The notes under the pieces: model-generated
What the model saw: the letters and a program-made list of their open reading frames with translations, nothing else
What the model was told of the DNA's origin: nothing
Database searches by the model: none
Position numbers and translations under genes: made by a program
Assembly (NCBI RefSeq): GCF_009687865.1
Contig: NZ_BLAE01000086.1
Location: forward strand, 4,536 to 47,835
Reading direction: 5' to 3'
Length of the DNA: 43,300 nucleotides
Source: Acrocarpospora macrocephala
GTDB lineage: Bacteria; Actinomycetota; Actinomycetes; Streptosporangiales; Streptosporangiaceae
In this document: positions 13,835 to 21,121 of the stretch, one piece after another
How positions within the stretch are numbered: the stretch's first letter is position 1
Layout: the number at the start of each line of letters is the position of its first letter

Positions 13835-14800
13835 CTAGGTTAGGAAGGTTTGGACGTCGGAAATTTCGTCGTTGAGGGGGACTTGTTCGGCGAAGAAGGT
13901 GGGCGTGATCTGTTTTTGGCGGATCGTCCATGTGCCGGTGACTGTGGCGTTCACGATGATCGTCGGTCGGATGATTCCGCCGCCGGGATGGATCTCTCGG
14001 ACGTGGGACAACATTCCTTCGCGGTTGCGCCAGCCGAGGAGGTATTCGTCGAAGGCGGGCAGCAGCCGTACCAGATCGGCGGGTGGGTGGGGTTGTGGTT
14101 GTTTCTCGGGTGATCGCGCGAGTTTCCAGGCGCGGCGGGCGTCGCCCAAGGAGACGCCTGACCAGGCGGCGAGGTCTTCGGGAGCTGCGGGGCTGTGGGC
14201 GTGGAGATATCGTTTCGCCAGCTCGGTGAGTGCTTTGTCACGGTCAGGTTCGAAGGCGAGAGGAGCGCCCAGCCAGTCGGCGGTGTGGACATATGTGGCT
14301 TTGCCATCACGGTTGGGGCCGAGCACGAGGAGCCCTTTTTCGGCGGCGAGGGCGGCCAGATGAATGACCGTTTGGCCTTGGGCTGAGGTGTTCAACCGGG
14401 CGGCGAGTTCCGCCTTGGTCAGCGGGCCTTGGTCACGCATCGCCCGGTCCACACGATTGACGAGTTGTTCCGGGGTCTGTCCCTCGACGCCGAGCTGGCG
14501 GAGTCTGCGCATCGCGTTCTGGACTCCTGGGCGTACCAGGGAGAGCAGCCAGGGCAGGTCGTCCGCGGCGATCAGGTGGAGCGTGCCCCGAGGCCCCCAG
14601 GCGCGAACGATCTCCGCTTCGGCCAGCGCGCTCTCCACGTCCGTCCGGTGGAACCCCGTCCCCCGCGCGCGCAGCGCCAGCGCCGCCGCGCGCGCGTCCT
14701 GTGCCTGTACGGCGAGCAGGTGCCGTACGATCCCGGCCGGGGTGCCAGGTGGGCGGTGCAGCAGCTGGGACACCGCCCGCGCAGGCCACAGATCGTTCAT
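13835..14800 (-). CDS. Winged-helix DNA-binding protein, AlkZ/YcaQ-like (HTH_42)
   Basis: This 321-residue protein belongs to the winged-helix family that includes the AlkZ/YcaQ DNA glycosylases. The N-terminal segment HLLAVQAQDARAAALALRARG contains the QxQ-type catalytic motif (VQAQD) used by those enzymes. A tandem winged-helix region follows (RAWGPRGTLHLIAADDLPWLLSLV, QGPLTKAELAARL), and then the conserved LLPAFDEYLLGWRNR and GGGIIRPTIIVNATVTGTW. AlkZ-type enzymes unhook bulky or crosslinked alkylated bases, but many paralogues are uncharacterised. The ATG at 14800 has GAGGA 7 nt upstream. It is divergent from the SMC-like operon with only ~63 bp between starts. Confidence 0.85.
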   Translation of the reverse strand: MNDLWPARAVSQLLHRPPGTPAGIVRHLLAVQAQDARAAALALRARGTGFHRTDVESALAEAEIVRAWGPRGTLHLIAADDLPWLLSLVRPGVQNAMRRLRQLGVEGQTPEQLVNRVDRAMRDQGPLTKAELAARLNTSAQGQTVIHLAALAAEKGLLVLGPNRDGKATYVHTADWLGAPLAFEPDRDKALTELAKRYLHAHSPAAPEDLAAWSGVSLGDARRAWKLARSPEKQPQPHPPADLVRLLPAFDEYLLGWRNREGMLSHVREIHPGGGIIRPTIIVNATVTGTWTIRQKQITPTFFAEQVPLNDEISDVQTFLT

Positions 14801-14863: not shown

Positions 14864-16075
14864 GTGCTTGAGGAGAACGTGCCGGAGACGCTGGATGCCG
14901 CGCTGACCGATGAGGCGGTGCTCGTCACTTATCGGAGGATGTTCGCGGCGCTGGCTCGCGATAGCGGGGCCGTGGTCGACGATCCGGAGCTGGTGGACAT
15001 CGCCGAGACGTTGTTCGCCGCGTTCGCGGAGGCCGGGGAGGAGTGGCTGACGCATGAGCAGATGCGGCATGCCTGCCGTGCCTATCCGGCCGATCAGTTC
15101 GAGAATCGGCTGCGGGTGCTGCGCGGGCTGGGCGCGGTTCGCGAGGTGTTCCCCAAACCGAACCAGCTCCGATATCGGGCGTCGTTCACCTCGGTCGTCG
15201 GGTTGATGTTCATCCGGCGGATGATGGACGACGGCGGGCAGAGCGAGATGCATCGCCTGCTGGCGTTGGAGGATCTCAACGTCGCCGATCCGCGGACCAC
15301 GATGGAGCAGGCCAGGCAATCGGCGTACAACCTGGCCAGGGCGTTCCGGTTGTGGGCGCTGGAGCTGATCACGCTCAGCACGGGGACGATCGAGGAGTTG
15401 CGGGAGCAGGCGCCCAAACTGTGGGGCACCGAGGAGATCGCCCGCCGGGCGCAGAGCCTGCACGGCACGATTCTCGGCCGCTGGCCCGCCCTGGACCGGA
15501 CGTGCACCGACCTGCGTACGGCGATCTACGCCTACAGCGACGCCTCCCGCCGCGCCGCCGGACGATTGGCCGATTCCGCCGGAACCACCAGGAACCTCAC
15601 CCTTCTCCCCGCCGAAACCTGGCGCACCTTCGCCCAGACCGCGACCAGGGAACGCCTCGCCGCCGTTCTCGACGGTTTCGCCTTCGACGCCGCCGCCCCC
15701 TGGCACGATCCCGCCGCGATCGCCCAGGCCGTCGACGAAGCCCCTCGCCCGGCCCCGATCCGGCCGACTCCGCCCAGGTCCCCTCTTCCCGACCCGGGTC
15801 CCGAGAATTCGTACGCTCCGGTCATCACCGGCCTCGACCGTCTGACCACCGTCGCCGAAGCCGCCCTTGCCGGCCGGTCCGAAGTCCCCCTGAGTGAGAT
15901 TCTCACCGACCGCTGGCCCGCGATCCGCCGGCTCCTGGCCGACCTCACGGCCGCCGACCTTCGTTCCGAACTGCCGTACCGGTTGCGCTGGTCCGACACC
16001 CTGACCTCGCATCCGGCGGGTCACCCCAGCTGGCTCTCCCACGGCACCTTCGAAAGGCACCCAACCGATGCCTGA
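14864..16075 (+). CDS. Kleisin-like subunit of an SMC/MukBEF-type complex
   Basis: This is the first gene of a three-gene coupled operon with an SMC-like ATPase (~403 residues). The N-terminal part looks like a winged helix (EWLTHEQMRHACRAYPADQ, then ENRLRVLRGLGAVREVF and LRYRASFT). A long helical region follows (MEQARQSAYNLARAFRLWAL, RTAIYAYSDASRRAAGRL). After a proline-rich linker (~290-310) comes a small C-terminal helical domain. That order resembles MukF/MksF/JetA kleisins, which bridge the two SMC heads. The assignment rests on architecture and context, not on a clear motif. GTG 14864 fits a leaderless start; GTG 14879 (AGGAG 3 nt upstream) is the alternative. The longer frame reading back into 14429 overlaps the divergent gene and is rejected. 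It overlaps the next gene by 8 bp. Confidence 0.7.
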   Translation: MLEENVPETLDAALTDEAVLVTYRRMFAALARDSGAVVDDPELVDIAETLFAAFAEAGEEWLTHEQMRHACRAYPADQFENRLRVLRGLGAVREVFPKPNQLRYRASFTSVVGLMFIRRMMDDGGQSEMHRLLALEDLNVADPRTTMEQARQSAYNLARAFRLWALELITLSTGTIEELREQAPKLWGTEEIARRAQSLHGTILGRWPALDRTCTDLRTAIYAYSDASRRAAGRLADSAGTTRNLTLLPAETWRTFAQTATRERLAAVLDGFAFDAAAPWHDPAAIAQAVDEAPRPAPIRPTPPRSPLPDPGPENSYAPVITGLDRLTTVAEAALAGRSEVPLSEILTDRWPAIRRLLADLTAADLRSELPYRLRWSDTLTSHPAGHPSWLSHGTFERHPTDA

Positions 16076-16305
16076 GCCCGAGCCACAGACCCACGCATCG
16101 CGGGACGACTTCGAAGCCACCCGACCTAGACCTGATCGTCCGCTACGGATCCACGAAATACAGAGCACCTTGGAAGGCGCCCAACCAGTACTTGGTTATC
16201 AGCCATCGCAGACCTCGACAACGCGGAGCACAGGTCAATCACCGATCCACGCATCGCGGGACGCATTGGAAGGTTCCCGGCCTGTATCGGAACGGCAGCC
16301 GCAGG
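16040..16305 (+). repeat. Degenerate 52-96-bp repeat array across the junction of the kleisin-like and accessory genes
   Basis: Four related units begin with CACG at 16040, 16092, 16152 and 16248 and share a later TT-C/G-GAAGG or TTCGAAG core and a CC-A/C-G/A-CC segment. Units 2 and 4 share a perfect 16-bp stretch, CACGCATCGCGGGACG (16092-16107, 16248-16263). The array encodes the last residues of the first protein and the first ~80 residues of the second (HASRDDFEATRP, STLEGAQPVLG, HASRDALEGSRP). Confidence 0.65.
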
Positions 16306-17537
16306 CGCACGCTCGGGCGCGGATGAATGGGGTTCTCCCCCTGAGTCCGGCTGAGAGCGTTCCTGCGGGGTTTGTCCGGCTCGCGCAGGGTCTCGCGCAG
16401 GGTGAGGCCGCGCTGGCTCTCGCCCAATGGCCGGATGGCGCTACGCCGTCGGTGCTGGATGAATACCAGCTTCCCGCGTTTCCCGTCGAGCGTTCGGGCG
16501 AGACCCGTCGCATGCTCGCGGCCTGTCTCCGGGTGTGCTGGACCGACCTTGGCAGCGATCCCTGGCCTGGCGCTGCCGTTCCCGTGGCCTCCGTGCTCAC
16601 CTGCTACCGGGCGCTGACGGGCCGCCCCGACGATTCCACCCGAAGCTGGGCGATCGGCGCCCTCCGCCGCCTCAACGACACCGCCTGGATCACCCTCACA
16701 TCCGGCTTGGACGACATCGCCACACGCGGCGGGCGAGCCCGGCTTGGTGATCTGACGAAGGCGTATGTCCGGCTTGGTCCCCGCTGCGCGACCTGGCCCG
16801 CCGATTCGCATGCCCAGCTCCGCGAGCTGATGCGAAGAATGCCGGTTCCCCCGCCGAACGAGGACACCGGATCCAAGCAGCTGCCGGTGAGCGGTTACCG
16901 GGACGAAGGGGCCGCCGATCTGGAAGATCTCCTAGCCCCGTATGACGAGCGCCGCCGGGCGGAGCTGGTGGCGGCGTTCATGGTCGTCGAGCAGGTCGCG
17001 GAACCGGTGCACGAGGCACGGTTCGCCGCCCTGCGCGACCCGGCCCTGCGCCGCACCCTCGCCGACATGCTGTCCCGCCGTGGCCGAACGCTGATCCAGC
17101 GCCGCGACACCTGGATCTCCGGCTACCAGGACGGCATCGCATCCGGCGACGGGCAACTCTCCGAGGGCGAGCGCGCGGTCCTGACCCTGGTGCTGATCCA
17201 TTCCGTGGCGATCCCCCGCTCTGAGGGCCTGCTGTCCGAGGACACCTGGCTTTCGCCGTATCCCGTGCCAGTCGAGGAACTGCGCAAACGAACCCTTCTC
17301 CCGATCGGCGAACTGGAGGCCGCCCTCAGAACACTCCGCCACGCCGGACTCCTCACCCAGATCAAGAGCGCCGACGAAATCTCCGGCGGCTACGTTCCCG
17401 GCCCTCAGTTCCACCGCCTCACCCAAACCGCCCGGGCCCGCCTCCAGGAGGAACTCATCCTCGCCGCCGGCCCGCACACCCCCCTGGCCATCGCCATCCG
17501 CTCCCGCCGAGCCACCACCACAAGGGGACAAGCGTGA
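16068..17537 (+). CDS. Winged-helix accessory (KITE/MukE-like) subunit of the SMC operon
   Basis: This is a 489-residue protein. Residues 1-85 are a low-complexity repeat-derived tail. The folded part starts near ATG 16323 (MNGVLPLSPAESVPAGFVRLAQGL), which is an alternative start. The middle is helical (TRRMLAACLRVCWTDLG; SWAIGALRRLNDTAWITL, a possible winged helix). The C-terminus has a clear winged-helix pattern: EGERAVLTLVLIHSVAIPR, then PVEELRKRTLLPIGELEAAL and RTLRHAGLLTQI, then HRLTQTARARLQEEL. Tandem winged helices are typical of MukE/MksE/JetB (KITE) subunits that bind the kleisin and DNA. Its role here is inferred from position between kleisin-like and SMC genes. It overlaps its neighbours by 8 bp and 4 bp (GTGA), indicating equimolar coupled translation. 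Confidence 0.68.
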   Translation: MPEPEPQTHASRDDFEATRPRPDRPLRIHEIQSTLEGAQPVLGYQPSQTSTTRSTGQSPIHASRDALEGSRPVSERQPQAHARARMNGVLPLSPAESVPAGFVRLAQGLAQGEAALALAQWPDGATPSVLDEYQLPAFPVERSGETRRMLAACLRVCWTDLGSDPWPGAAVPVASVLTCYRALTGRPDDSTRSWAIGALRRLNDTAWITLTSGLDDIATRGGRARLGDLTKAYVRLGPRCATWPADSHAQLRELMRRMPVPPPNEDTGSKQLPVSGYRDEGAADLEDLLAPYDERRRAELVAAFMVVEQVAEPVHEARFAALRDPALRRTLADMLSRRGRTLIQRRDTWISGYQDGIASGDGQLSEGERAVLTLVLIHSVAIPRSEGLLSEDTWLSPYPVPVEELRKRTLLPIGELEAALRTLRHAGLLTQIKSADEISGGYVPGPQFHRLTQTARARLQEELILAAGPHTPLAIAIRSRRATTTRGQA

Positions 17538-20500
17538 CGCAACCCTCGCCAGCTCCCTCCGACTTCACCCCCGCGGAGAGCGAACCCACCCATCCACCGA
17601 CACGGCCGACCACAAAGAAGGCCAGCACAACCGCCAACCACACCCCTGCCGAGGACGAAATCACCCAACCGCCAGCACAGCCAGCCACAAAGAAGACCGC
17701 CACGACCGCGCATGATCCATCCGCCAAGGGCACTGGCCCTGGGGTGCGTCCGGTGAACAGGGGGGCGGGAGCCGTACCAACCCTGCCCGAGACGGCCGCA
17801 GCCATGCGGACGGCGACCGACGTGACTGCGGCGGTCCTCACGCCCACGGTGACGGAGAATGTGGTCGGGGATCGGGTGTTGGTGGCTGTGCAGGCGATCA
17901 ATATTTCGCGGTTGTCGACGCATCCGGTGCCGACAGTGCCGGGGACGTTGATCGTGGTGGCGGGGGCCGGGCCCAAGGACTCCAATGGGGCGGGGAAATC
18001 GTCGTTCATCGCGGCGATCACGGCGTTGCTCGGGGATGAGCAGTGGCGGTTCGCGTCGGGGGCGAAGGCCGTGTCCGAATTGCTGTTCAACGCCGAGTTG
18101 GCGGCGCAGGGCGATCAGCAGTGGGCGAGCGCCGATCACGGATACATCATCGGTGTCTTCGACGTGCCCTCGGCGGGGTTGCCGATCACGGTCTGGGTGC
18201 GGGTGAATCAGGAGGCGCCGCATCTTGAAGTGCGGTGGGCGGAGGGCGTGCGCCTGTCCAGGGCGGCGTCCGAGGCCGATCGGGTCAGCAGAGCCGATGA
18301 GCTGTGGGCGGAGCTGCCGAAGAGCGCGGGGCGCCGGGACGTGGTCGCTCGTGACCTCACCCGGGTGCTTTATGGGGATCGCGTGAGGTGTGTCTCGTTC
18401 CTGTCGACGTCCGTCCGGAGCAAGGTCGCCACGAACCTGCTCTCGCAACCGCTGAATGAGATCTCGCCCGAGCGCATCTTCGAAGCGATCGCCGCGCTGA
18501 CCGGCCTGGACGGGGAGCTCGACCAGGAACGCGAAGCCCGGCGCGACGAGCACGCCAAACGTGTCCGCGCCGCCCAAGCCGAGGAGCGCCTGCGGGAATT
18601 CGAGCGAGACTCGGCCGCTCTGCTCGGCACGTTCGACCGGCGTGACCAGGCCAGAGCCCGGCTGGCCGAGGCACTGCGCTGCTGGCGGGGCAGGATCGCC
18701 CGCCGATTCGTCGACGCCGCGGACCGCGACCAGGAACTCAAGACCGACCTCACCGCCCACGAGGACGCCGCCGACACCACCTCCGAGGCGATCGCGGCGG
18801 TCAAGACCGAGATCAGCGGATTGAAGGACGACTCGCTCGACCGAGCTCTGGCCGCCGCCCGCCGCGAACTCGCCACCATCCAGGTTCGCGCCAACAAACT
18901 GGAGACCGAACGCGCCGTCATCCAGAACACCGCCGACGAACTCCGCGCGCGAATCCCCGCACTTGAGGATCTTCAGCGCCAATCCGACGGCCTTGACGTC
19001 CCCACGGCGAACACCGAACTCGCCGACGCCCGGCATCGCCTCAACGAGGCGCTCAAAGCCCAGGGCGTGGCCGACCGTGAAGCCCAAACCGCGGAAACCG
19101 CCCTCCAAGAGGCGGAGAACGGCCCCGCCTCCGCCCAGCTCAGAGCCCTGTCCGCAGCGGGCCTGCCCGCCGCCAGCCTCCTGGACGCCCTCGACGTCGC
19201 CGAACACGCCCACGACACCCTGCCCACCCCCGGCGGATGGCCCCACGACCTCGCCGTGATCGTCGACTCGGGACACATGCGGGCGGCGGCACAAGCATTG
19301 GCGGATCTGCCCGGCTCTGTCCTGGTCAGTCCTGCCGGAGTGACCGTGATCGGGGCTTTCGAAGACGCCGTGACCGGCCGTGACGCACGTATCAAAGCCG
19401 CCGAACAACGCCTGACCCGGGCACGGGACACCCAGCAACGAGCACTCCACGCCGTACGCCAAGCCGAAGAGGGAGTGGCCGCCGCGAAACGCCGCGTAGA
19501 AGGCGCCGAGGCCACCATCCGACTCGCCGAAATCCACCGGCGACTGACAGACCAGCGCGACCAACTCGGCATCCTGCAAGCGGCCATCACCGAACTGACC
19601 CCCACCCTGGACACCGCAGAACAGGAAGTGAGCACCCTCGACTTCCGCGCCAGAACCCGCAACATGGAGATCGAACGCCTCGACGCCCGCCGCCAGCGCC
19701 TGGAATCCGAACGCGACCAGGCCAGACTCCGAGCCACCGAGATAGCGACGGAACGCCACGCCCTCGACCTCCCAGCCCTGTCCCAAGAATGGGCAAGCAA
19801 CTGGCCCCCTCCCCCAACGCCTCAGCCGAGAACGGCAACAGGCTCCACGCCCCGCACCCCAGAATCGGCCCGTACTCCAGAAACGGCCCGTACCCCAGAA
19901 AAGAACGGCACGCCGGGTGAGCGGGTGGGCCAACCACTGTCTGGCGACCTACCCAGCGGCGCTGCCGACGGCCAAGAGGCGGCCCGTGCCCCAGGGACGG
20001 ACGGCATTTCGATGGCCGCCCGCACCTCGGAGAGCGGCGGCACCCCGGAAACGGCGCCGACCCCGAAGGCGGCCCGCATCCCGGAAACGGACGGCATTTC
20101 GAAGGCGGCTCGCATCTCGGAGAGCGGCGGCACCCCGGAAACGGCGCGGACCCCGAAGGCGGCTCGCACATCAGGGGCGAGCGGCAGGCCGGAGATGGTC
20201 CGCGAACTGGAGGCGGCCCGGGACTGGCTGACCGCCGCCGACCCCTTGACCGCCGACGAATGGTGGCGCACTGCCGAACGGCACCTTGACGCCGCTCTGC
20301 GGGCCACATTCGCCGAAACCGATGAGACTCCCGAAGAGCTCGACTTTCTTATCAAAGAGCGCCGCAGCGGACGCTCTGCTCAGGAACTGGCGACCTTCCC
20401 CGCCCTCTGTGCTTCCCTCGCCTCTTACCTTCGCGGCCAGGAAGAATACGAACGCCACCAGCGCCGCCAAATCGAATCTCAGGTGACGTCACGCCGCCGC

Positions 20501-21121
20501 GACCTATCCGCCGCCACCAAAGGCGCCGAAGAAGCCGCCCAATCGACTGCCGTCCACCGTGCCGCCCTGACCGAAGCCATCAGAACAAGACTCGCCCGAG
20601 TGGCTGAAGAATTCGGAAAACTGGACACCGGTTACGGCGGCTACGGTGCCACCCTCGACTTCCCCGTCCCCACCGCCCCCGCAGACCCGGAACAACGCTG
20701 GTCCTGGCGAGTGATCCCCAAATGGCGCCGCGGCGAAGGCCAAAGCTACGTCCCCTACAACCGCCGCGCCAACACCGCCCTCATGGACGAGAAAGCGGTC
20801 AAACTAGTCTGCGCCGCCGCCATCGCCTCCTCCGGCGGCACCCACCTGACCCTCGTCCTCGACGAACTAGGCCGCAACCTGGGCAAAGAACACCGCCGAG
20901 AAGCCGTCTCCCTGTTCCGCCGAATAGGCGAAACCCACGGCATCACCGTAATCGGCGCCCTCCAGGACGACATGGAACCCTACGCCATTGACGCCTGCGG
21001 CCAGTACATCAAACTCCGACGCTCCTCCGACACGACCCCCTACAACGACCCCCCAATCATCATCGCCCACGACCGCCACCCCGAACGAGTCCACACCCTC
21101 AGCCCCTGGATAACTCGCTGA
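17534..21121 (+). CDS. SMC/MukB-like coiled-coil ATPase with degenerate ABC signature
   Basis: This 1195-residue protein would act as the motor of a condensin-like complex. Residues 1-110 are a disordered tail. The N-terminal head has Walker A SNGAGKSS (Lys155). A long coiled coil (~330-530) leads to a small globular hinge-like region (~540-615, with DLAVIVDSG and GSVLVSPAGVTVIGAF). The returning coil (~615-755) is interrupted by a ~135-residue Thr/Pro/Ala-rich repeat region (~756-891) and resumes to ~1045. The C-terminal head has Walker B LVLDELGR (Asp1110, Glu1111) and GITVIGALQDDMEPY as an H-loop equivalent. The usual LSGGE signature before Walker B reads TALMDEKAVKL (1081-1091): the glutamate-lysine remains but the Ser-Gly-Gly is lost. 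The GTG start overlaps the preceding stop. No JetD/MksG-like gene follows. Confidence 0.85.
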   Translation: MTQPSPAPSDFTPAESEPTHPPTRPTTKKASTTANHTPAEDEITQPPAQPATKKTATTAHDPSAKGTGPGVRPVNRGAGAVPTLPETAAAMRTATDVTAAVLTPTVTENVVGDRVLVAVQAINISRLSTHPVPTVPGTLIVVAGAGPKDSNGAGKSSFIAAITALLGDEQWRFASGAKAVSELLFNAELAAQGDQQWASADHGYIIGVFDVPSAGLPITVWVRVNQEAPHLEVRWAEGVRLSRAASEADRVSRADELWAELPKSAGRRDVVARDLTRVLYGDRVRCVSFLSTSVRSKVATNLLSQPLNEISPERIFEAIAALTGLDGELDQEREARRDEHAKRVRAAQAEERLREFERDSAALLGTFDRRDQARARLAEALRCWRGRIARRFVDAADRDQELKTDLTAHEDAADTTSEAIAAVKTEISGLKDDSLDRALAAARRELATIQVRANKLETERAVIQNTADELRARIPALEDLQRQSDGLDVPTANTELADARHRLNEALKAQGVADREAQTAETALQEAENGPASAQLRALSAAGLPAASLLDALDVAEHAHDTLPTPGGWPHDLAVIVDSGHMRAAAQALADLPGSVLVSPAGVTVIGAFEDAVTGRDARIKAAEQRLTRARDTQQRALHAVRQAEEGVAAAKRRVEGAEATIRLAEIHRRLTDQRDQLGILQAAITELTPTLDTAEQEVSTLDFRARTRNMEIERLDARRQRLESERDQARLRATEIATERHALDLPALSQEWASNWPPPPTPQPRTATGSTPRTPESARTPETARTPEKNGTPGERVGQPLSGDLPSGAADGQEAARAPGTDGISMAARTSESGGTPETAPTPKAARIPETDGISKAARISESGGTPETARTPKAARTSGASGRPEMVRELEAARDWLTAADPLTADEWWRTAERHLDAALRATFAETDETPEELDFLIKERRSGRSAQELATFPALCASLASYLRGQEEYERHQRRQIESQVTSRRRDLSAATKGAEEAAQSTAVHRAALTEAIRTRLARVAEEFGKLDTGYGGYGATLDFPVPTAPADPEQRWSWRVIPKWRRGEGQSYVPYNRRANTALMDEKAVKLVCAAAIASSGGTHLTLVLDELGRNLGKEHRREAVSLFRRIGETHGITVIGALQDDMEPYAIDACGQYIKLRRSSDTTPYNDPPIIIAHDRHPERVHTLSPWITR
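17567..17716 (+). repeat. 75-bp tandem duplication in the N-terminal tail of the SMC-like gene
   Basis: Two adjacent in-frame 75-bp units (17567-17641, 17642-17716) encode 25-residue units of pattern TPAE-x-E-x-T-x-PP-x-x-P-x-TKK-A/T-x-TTA. They form a Pro/Thr/Lys-rich, probably disordered tail before the ATPase head. Confidence 0.8.
20000..20179 (+). repeat. 90-bp tandem duplication within the low-complexity insert of the SMC-like gene
   Basis: Two 90-bp units (20000-20089, 20090-20179) encode 30-residue units starting DGIS-M/K-AAR and containing SESGGTPETA and TPKAAR. Shorter repeats of TPE-x-ARTPE lie just upstream (19850-19905). The whole low-complexity stretch covers about 19801-20205 and lies within the returning coiled-coil arm. 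Confidence 0.88.

Follow-up and report, generated by a model that had tools for sequence, protein, structure and literature searches.

Wadjet, MksBEFG, and EptABCD have in common a plan built on a kleisin, a KITE protein, and an SMC ATPase, and the same set occurs in three-gene, nuclease-free form in P. aeruginosa MksBEF and E. coli MukBEF. Wadjet, a plasmid-defense system, cuts circular plasmids with its JetD nuclease. One review describes MksBEF as having likely arisen by JetD loss and as organizing chromosomes, regards as unresolved where Wadjet came from and how it is related to MukBEF and MksBEF, and speculates that MukBEF and MksBEF descended from nuclease-armed defense complexes (PMC10586767). 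The window (the whole stretch of DNA analyzed here, 43,300 nucleotides) contains a three-gene SMC-like operon beside which no JetD/MksG gene was found, as the first-pass annotation had reported.

The three genes, A, B, and C, overlap by 8 bases (A/B) and 4 bases (B/C) (Table 1), and the GTG start of A aligns with the ATG of close relatives. Codon-position G+C (positions 1/2/3) was 0.69/0.53/0.86 in A, 0.73/0.55/0.77 in B, and 0.71/0.55/0.78 in C; being lowest at the second and highest at the third position, it makes all three look coding. Relatives were gathered with C as query, of which the best 80 of 138 were kept and 77 fetched. Of the 78 loci that these best-80 matches gave, the own-genome fragment included, all 78 have C, 77 have B, and 72 have A, and a missing A or B always lay at a contig or locus end. 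The three ORFs first delineated in the window are thus confirmed and are kept together in relatives, and their A-B-C order is conserved in two families and another class.

Table 1. Coordinates of the operon, its predicted parts, and the divergent neighbor
Feature	Positions	Strand	Remarks
Gene A	14864-16075	+	GTG start, 403 aa; kleisin-like subunit (MukF/JetA role)
A N-terminal winged helix, predicted	14990-15181	+	Residues 43-106; AF2 model secondary structure, low confidence
A helical bundle, predicted	15185-15583	+	Residues 108-240; low confidence in parts
A C-terminal winged helix, predicted	15833-16057	+	Residues 324-398, after Pro-rich linker; AF2 model
Gene B	16068-17537	+	ATG start, 489 aa; KITE-like subunit
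B1 unit	16305-16853	+	Residues 80-262, one winged helix
B2 unit	16923-17513	+	Residues 286-482, tandem winged helices
Gene C	17534-21121	+	GTG start, 1195 aa; SMC/JetC-like ATPase, conserved from about residue 107
C Walker A region, PKDSNGAGKSS	17972-18004	+	Contains Lys155
C putative hinge-like segment between helix-rich arms	19121-19438	+	Residues ~530-635; suggested by composition and conserved alignment columns
C ABC-signature position, ANTALMDEKAVK, without SGG	20768-20803	+	From alignment
C Walker B, LTLVLDE	20846-20866	+	Asp1110, Glu1111
AlkZ-like DNA glycosylase family neighbor, divergent	13835-14800	-	PF06224 1.9e-53; not counted in system

The ATPase read from gene C proved real: Lys155 of Walker A and Asp1110 and Glu1111 of Walker B are invariant in both C alignments (30 and 19 proteins). 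Asp149 replaces the leading Gly of the P-loop (DSNGAGKS). An SGG or STG ABC signature is absent from C, the corresponding stretch being ANTALMDEKAVKL; the signature is degenerate, with TALM where JetC of locus L126 has SGGQ. Residues 1 to ~105 are low-complexity and variable, so the true start may lie downstream. An antisense tRNA-Ser candidate inside C was dropped for want of Rfam support.

Profile comparison with hhalign related C to the Wadjet SMC protein over its Walker B half, the C-terminal head, which matched the JetC profile at 97.7% probability (E 1.3e-12; 95.8% with core-only rows). The Walker A half aligned with JetC at 4% only, and a two-row profile of nuclease-bearing C proteins alone gave no match (7.4%). 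Rad50/SbcC is, like C, a coiled-coil ABC ATPase, and SbcCD is often encoded near the operon, but its profile matched C more weakly (46.5%, coils only), C has no CxxC hook, and the window has kleisin/KITE-like partners. Against SMC_prok_B, C scored 23.6 bits (cutoff 567.35), with the match outside the heads. Matches of C in Pfam, NCBIfam, and PADLOC were weak and mostly to coiled coil, those in PADLOC being mad3 (6.8e-4), LmuB (0.025), JetC2 (0.26), and JetC3 (1.2). No Pfam or NCBIfam model scored above its cutoff for any of the three window proteins, Pfam gave no MukF, MukE, or MukB match for any of the three, and PDB sequence searches returned nothing meaningful. Comparisons with E. coli MukF, MukE, and MukB by hhalign, which used single sequences and had low power, stayed at or below 6.3% when the full sets were used and came to at most 18.3% when core C was compared with MukB.

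For B, the predicted structure fits a KITE-like protein fairly well. The model (pLDDT 74.7) has three winged-helix-like elements, including the tandem winged-helix fold of KITE proteins. Its top PDB fold match was ScpB of Smc-ScpAB (6juv_A, E 7.8e-4), and MukE entries and the JetABC chains 9qe0_D and 8dk1_E were within the first 25, with target-normalized TM-scores of at most 0.45 against ScpB, MukE, and JetABC entries; RNA polymerase III, MarR-like, and IscR-like winged helices were interspersed among these KITE matches. B corresponds to B1 plus B2, each of which has a gene of its own in Actinomadura-type loci, in the second family, and in another class; relative to Wadjet, it has an extra winged-helix unit.

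A is only weakly assignable as a kleisin by its predicted fold. Winged-helix-like elements at both termini flank a helical bundle, an order that fits a kleisin, yet the model is poor (pLDDT 58). The top PDB fold match was chain B of 3rpu, a MukE-MukF complex (E 1.9e-2), taken as MukF because it is 302 residues long; MukF(1-287) entries followed at ranks 24 and 32. Neither A nor B had a Pfam, NCBIfam, or PADLOC match even at E 10. A library scan of relatives gave generic winged-helix matches for B2 (best DprA_WH, 6.5e-6) and no improvement over the window's own proteins for A and C, and profile comparison gave no match of A, B1, or B2 to JetA, JetB, MukE, or MukF. The first-pass description of two winged-helix proteins agrees with the models, which have SMC-complex entries as top matches (weakly for A) and did not turn out unrelated to kleisin and KITE folds.

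Three D profiles gave no JetD-like match better than E 0.3 across 92 core stretches, which total 1.86 Mb and overlap in part. JetD of locus L133, an independent control outside the building set of every profile, scored 1.2e-138; the remaining controls were members of the profiles themselves. The profiles cross-detect poorly, so a very diverged JetD could be overlooked: the canonical JetD profile missed the nuclease D' of locus L140 and reached D'' of locus L132 at E 0.6 only. The window's own genome had no match to JetD_C, DUF3375, or D', with a gap hiding a JetD being possible since the assembly is in 166 contigs. Of 28 core genomes searched with D', 26 gave no match; the two positives were G396, in its second operon, and G154, a weak stop-bearing match (E 0.03). 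That a fourth gene is absent from both flanks agrees with the profile search and with the neighbor clustering below, and the searches made found no JetD elsewhere in the flanks or in the own genome.

Two intact nuclease-bearing relatives were found, a number that is a lower bound since the first genome search missed A'' of G396 and A' of G555. One, L132, is a D-A-B-C operon in G396, a genome of the window's genus in which the nuclease-free operon is present as well, on a separate contig. Its D'' matches JetD_C (4.7e-12), and its A'', B'', and C'' match the window-family profiles at 6.5e-29, 2.9e-38, and 7e-118, with 24% (A) and 27% (C) identity to the window's proteins. The other, L140, is an A-B1-B2-C-D operon from another class, whose D' matches DUF2399 (7.3e-9) and JetD1 (1.7e-6) and whose A is 29% identical to that of the window. 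By profile, A, B, and C of both operons are homologous to those of the window, and a JetD-like Toprim nuclease is the extra component. JetA and JetB models recognized no protein of L132 or L140, and JetC matches were absent or weak. The first-pass view of a complex without a nuclease therefore applies to the nuclease-free branch and not to the whole family, whose divergent relatives carry a JetD-like gene. L132 adjoins ORFs that read like transposases, one of which received no name from a PDB match. G545 (L141) holds a broken relative with a JetD-like end.

These loci may represent an unrecognized fourth kind of Wadjet, with a JetD-like nuclease, A, B, and C proteins missed by the models, a two-KITE B, and a degenerate-signature C, one branch of which would have lost the nuclease and would now be a vertically inherited chromosome organizer in at least two actinobacterial families; we give this proposal slightly less than an even chance. 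If true, it would be an independent instance of a defense machine turned housekeeping complex. States with and without JetD coexist in one small family, and in G396 even in one genome, so that they can be compared directly. A JetD-bearing lineage goes unrecognized by the defense-system models applied here, which also provide no name for the conserved SMC-like complex found in Nonomuraea, Actinomadura, Streptosporangium, and their relatives.

Gene A was present in 29 of 394 genomes of the class (14 in family f1, the own genome included, 14 in f19, and one remnant in f17), and gene C in 28, the same set minus the f17 remnant. The other 365 genomes had no match to gene A, indicating that the system is not generally essential. 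All five genomes of the window's genus have the operon. In f19, 14 of 22 genomes were positive: all 12 genomes of one genus, both genomes of a second, and none of the 8 from four others. The nuclease-free form occurs in two families, in all listed genomes of the genera having the operon, and is confined to one side of a supported branch of a tree that has no outgroup and long branches and so does not prove that D was lost and not gained. The dN/dS values of A (0.05-0.09), B (0.13-0.19), and C (0.10-0.22) indicate purifying selection. The f17 genome (G017) was rejected as an operon carrier, since it has only an N-terminal A remnant followed by an ORF reading like a transposase. Mobile carriage was likewise unsupported: phages (searched with A and C'') and viral contigs (two C profiles) gave no match, and the sole match in the plasmid set was a chromosome-sized Nonomuraea gerenzanensis record of 11.85 Mb, entered as circular, whose matched stretch has no genes listed.

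A divergent kleisin/KITE/SMC complex without JetD/MksG, as first suggested, is supported by the folds (weakly for A), the JetC-like head of C, and the lack of any JetD found. With somewhat more than even confidence, we assign the operon to an uncatalogued SMC family resembling Wadjet and MksBEF, as its nuclease-free branch, which would organize the host chromosome. The branch is probably vertically inherited and chromosome-organizing, a role that we infer from its conservation. In the proposed mechanism, A would be the kleisin, B the KITE subunit (B1 and B2 fused), and C the SMC ATPase. C would dimerize via its hinge and its heads would engage on ATP; A would connect one C, at its neck, with the other, at its cap, B would clamp DNA, and ATP cycles would enlarge a DNA loop. 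JetD would have been lost during the history of this branch. Having no JetD, the complex would not cut, and so would act on the host chromosome, organizing or segregating it as MksBEF reportedly does.

It is scarcely credible that A and B are two winged-helix regulators lying beside an unrelated coiled-coil ATPase. Winged helices are common, neither A nor B matches any family, and the fold searches returned folds of the MarR, IscR, and RNA polymerase III types as well; however, SMC-complex entries were the top fold matches of both, C is JetC-like, two families and another class share the gene order, and two relatives have JetD-like genes alongside the set. We also consider it very improbable that a JetD acting in trans, or one diverged beyond detection, serves the complex. 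G404 combines the core operon's A with a DUF3375/JetD_C locus, G396 combines a core A with the D-A-B-C operon, and poor cross-detection by the profiles would favor an undetected JetD, but the own genome lacks JetD_C and D' matches and D' is missing from most core genomes.

Neighboring genes bear on two further explanations. Clustering covered the 73 of 78 loci (best 80 of 138) in which a G+C-based gene caller, which undercounted B, had kept C. A, B, and C alone were general, so a fixed fourth gene was rejected and the suggestion of another nuclease received no direct support. SbcC was the commonest neighbor within the fetched stretches (37 of 73 loci). Together with the AlkZ-like gene it could suggest a DNA-repair complex with the adjoining glycosylase or SbcCD, which we judge improbable. 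The divergent AlkZ-like gene is real, and its cluster occurred in 13 of the 73 loci, but only 14 of 67 loci, from three genera, have it immediately upstream in divergent orientation, and it was rejected as a partner; neither the SbcC nor the AlkZ-like cluster matched in 12 stretches of other families, and C lacks a CxxC zinc hook. An unlikely but more substantial possibility is that the complex is still defensive, using loop extrusion to sense plasmids or DNA of phages and then silencing or trapping them uncut, or recruiting a host nuclease encoded elsewhere. The nearest nuclease-bearing relatives do have JetD-like genes, one beside transposase-like ORFs, SbcC is frequently nearby, and Smc5/6, which acts against viral DNA, is not known to cut it. 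Patchy defense genes, however, do not typically occur throughout a genus under strong purifying selection as this operon does, phages and viral contigs gave no match and plasmids only the chromosome-sized one, and SbcC, on the opposite strand in 36 of its 37 copies, has no match in the window; nor was a further gene generally conserved beside the operon found. Smc5/6 is described in the same review as opposing viral DNA by blocking gene expression (PMC10586767). Among the less frequent neighbors in the 73 loci (best 80 of 138), SbcD, named like SbcC from a PDB match at one locus, was near the operon in 23, and a large protein was encoded directly downstream in 10.

Distribution and coding status were analyzed for the genes of the SMC-like operon, namely kleisin-like A, KITE-like B, and the SMC/JetC-like ATPase gene C. 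The first-pass annotation had described three overlapping genes, and this was borne out, since all three overlap on the plus strand and have a gene-like codon-position composition. A genome-collection scan with C as the query returned 138 relatives; the best of these, forming 77 loci, were retained, named from Streptosporangiaceae or Actinomadura-group genomes (two being metagenome assemblies). With the own-genome fragment counted, all 78 loci have C, 77 have B, and 72 have A, and the missing copies of A and B sit at contig or locus ends. Identity to the window's proteins was 69–96% for A (36 aligned relatives) and 57–83% for C (29 aligned relatives). Against three Acrocarpospora relatives, dN/dS was 0.05–0.09 for A, 0.13–0.19 for B, and 0.10–0.22 for C.

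Genes of the SMC-like operon in the window
Gene	Position	Strand	Basis
A	14864-16075	+	ORF, codon-position composition
B	16068-17537	+	ORF, codon-position composition
C	17534-21121	+	ORF, codon-position composition

The earlier description of C as a coiled-coil ATPase also held: Walker A and Walker B lie near opposite ends, with helix-rich stretches between them and a center richer in Pro and Gly. Curated libraries gave sub-threshold matches only (SMC_N, SMC_prok_B, ASRP, and PADLOC mad3, LmuB, and JetC). The Walker B half matched a profile made from the JetC proteins of six actinobacterial loci (97.7%, E 1.3e-12). Lower probabilities were obtained with an SbcC profile (46.5%, confined to the coils) and with MukB as a single sequence (6.3%). 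In the C–JetC alignment (29% identity), TALM replaces the SGGQ of JetC. A 90-base tandem repeat of about two copies (window 19977-20174) falls in a Pro/Gly-rich insert of C, residues roughly 750–890, that is absent from the aligned L099, L132, and L140 proteins. A tRNA-Ser called antisense inside C by ARAGORN (window 18998-19082, minus strand) is probably false because Rfam gives it no support.

Curated libraries gave no name to A or B. AlphaFold2 models made with the alignments had pLDDT values of 58 (poor) for A and 74.7 for B. The predicted secondary structure of A, from the model at pLDDT 58, runs from a winged helix through a helical bundle and a Pro-rich linker to a second winged helix, an order resembling that of MukF-type kleisins. 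Searched against the PDB with Foldseek, the A model had no match under E 0.001; a 302-residue chain of the MukE–MukF complex ranked first (E 0.019), and MukF(1-287) appeared at ranks 24 and 32. For the B model, ScpB ranked first (E 7.8e-4), and the first 25 matches include MukE entries, Pseudomonas aeruginosa JetABC, and Wadjet-II JetABC chains, as well as RNA polymerase III, MarR-like, and IscR-like winged helices. B is equivalent to two units, B1 with one predicted winged helix and B2 with two; Actinomadura-type loci, the second family (f19), and another class encode these halves as separate genes.

A was found in 29 of 394 class genomes, 14 from the window's family f1 (own included), 14 from f19, and one truncated f17 remnant, and C in 28 of 394, the same set minus that remnant. 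Among the 22 listed f19 genomes, the counts were 12 of 12 for genus g54, two of two for g75, and none of eight for four other genera; in f1, no genus was mixed for A among the matches listed. The f17 copy is decayed, with a lone N-terminal A remnant followed by a transposase-like ORF (L106:6041-6604, genome G017). Neither phage records (searched with A, and with C'' of the divergent relative L132) nor viral contigs (two C profiles) gave a match, and plasmid records gave none beyond one chromosome-sized record. In a tree of 42 C proteins (short search, no outgroup), the 31 f1 core, nine f19, and two nuclease-bearing sequences each fell on one side of a branch with support of 99–100, the last on long branches.

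A nuclease was sought in 92 core stretches totaling 1.86 Mb (the window and two flanks that overlap it, the 77 loci, 11 stretches from f19, and one from Nonomuraea gerenzanensis). Every ORF of at least 50 aa was searched with profiles of canonical JetD (five loci), of the two new D proteins described below, and of all combined. The best E was only 0.3, in line with the first-pass claim that the flanks carry no JetD gene. Controls were mostly profile members; the independent one, JetD of locus L133, reached E 1.2e-138 against the JetD profile but 0.089 against the D profile. The canonical profile gave only E 0.6 for D'' of L132 and missed D' of L140, so an equally distant nuclease could escape it. 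JetD_C, DUF3375, and D' had no match in the own genome, and Corynebacterium glutamicum, the positive control, matched both JetD_C and DUF3375. Across 41 genomes (own included), JetD_C was found in six and DUF3375 in seven, one below cut-off. D' was absent from 26 of 28 core genomes searched, the best 55 candidates being scored in many of them; the exceptions were G396, where D' lies in a second operon, and G154 (weak, E 0.03, two stops).

Two intact nuclease-bearing operons were found in divergent relatives. When the phylum was searched with the C profile and the two best candidates per genome were scored, three of 396 genomes matched: the window's own genome and two from another class, both in family f89. 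One genome of another class, G555, carries five genes in the order A'-B1'-B2'-C'-D' (L140:648-7645), in which D' matches DUF2399 (7.3e-9) and PADLOC JetD1 (1.7e-6) and C' has weak mid-protein matches to JetC2 (3.1e-5) and JetC3 (1.2e-4). The other operon, overlapping genes D''-A''-B''-C'' (L132:7876-15112), lies on contig C20 of G396, which belongs to the same genus as the window. ORFs reading like transposases, one of them without a PDB match, occur a few kilobases away. D'' matches JetD_C above cut-off (4.7e-12), and core profiles match A'' (6.5e-29), B'' (2.9e-38), and C'' (7e-118), which have no match to JetA, JetB, or JetC models and none in Pfam or NCBIfam. By sequence, this operon is a candidate new Wadjet type. 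A of the nuclease-free operon also occurs in G396, on contig C15, and in five of five genomes of the genus searched. A third relative (L141) is broken with a D-like end. In L143, A' and part of B1' are all that is present, and they lie at the end of a contig. The first look of the genome search missed A'' and A', and nuclease-bearing operons are thus undercounted. An N-terminal extension of A'' (L132:9287-9400) holds IFDSNR, faintly IFDR-like, in this single sequence; an IFDR motif is reported for the contact of JetB with JetD (PMC10586767).

The A-B-C operon shares its overall plan with Muk, Mks, and Wadjet but matches none of the curated models, and it differs from Wadjet in having no detectable JetD. 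Its own traits are a two-unit KITE, a degenerate ABC signature, and uncatalogued nuclease-bearing cousins. A review reports that MksBEF organizes chromosomes and probably arose when JetD was lost (PMC10586767). Another review groups MukBEF, MksBEF/Wadjet, Smc5/6, and Smc-ScpAB as KITE-based complexes (PMC10512200), and a further paper links the kleisin MksF to the nuclease MksG (PMC10123090); no paper on the operon was among the matches listed in open-licence PMC text. Drawing on gene and protein anatomy and established SMC knowledge, C would form a dimer bridged by A, B would clamp DNA, and ATP would drive loop enlargement; without JetD, no DNA would be cut. From this anatomy, SMC knowledge, and the cited papers, we therefore lean toward a nuclease-free complex acting on the chromosome over a defense complex that does not cut, which we consider unlikely though still worth weighing. 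A JetD supplied in trans or undetected seems very improbable, although the weak cross-detection by JetD profiles makes it a little more likely and the chromosome reading slightly less so. We infer that JetD was lost in the core branch, a direction taken from its being common to canonical Wadjet and not from a rooted tree.

Among neighboring genes, 37 of 73 loci have SbcC (named, like SbcD, from L002:9808-14718) within the retrieved stretch, and 23 have SbcD; SbcC had no match in the window. In 10 of 73 loci (L054:5608-8934 and nine others), C is directly followed on its own strand by a gene for a protein of ~1100 aa, which matches HEAT_2 below the cut-off.
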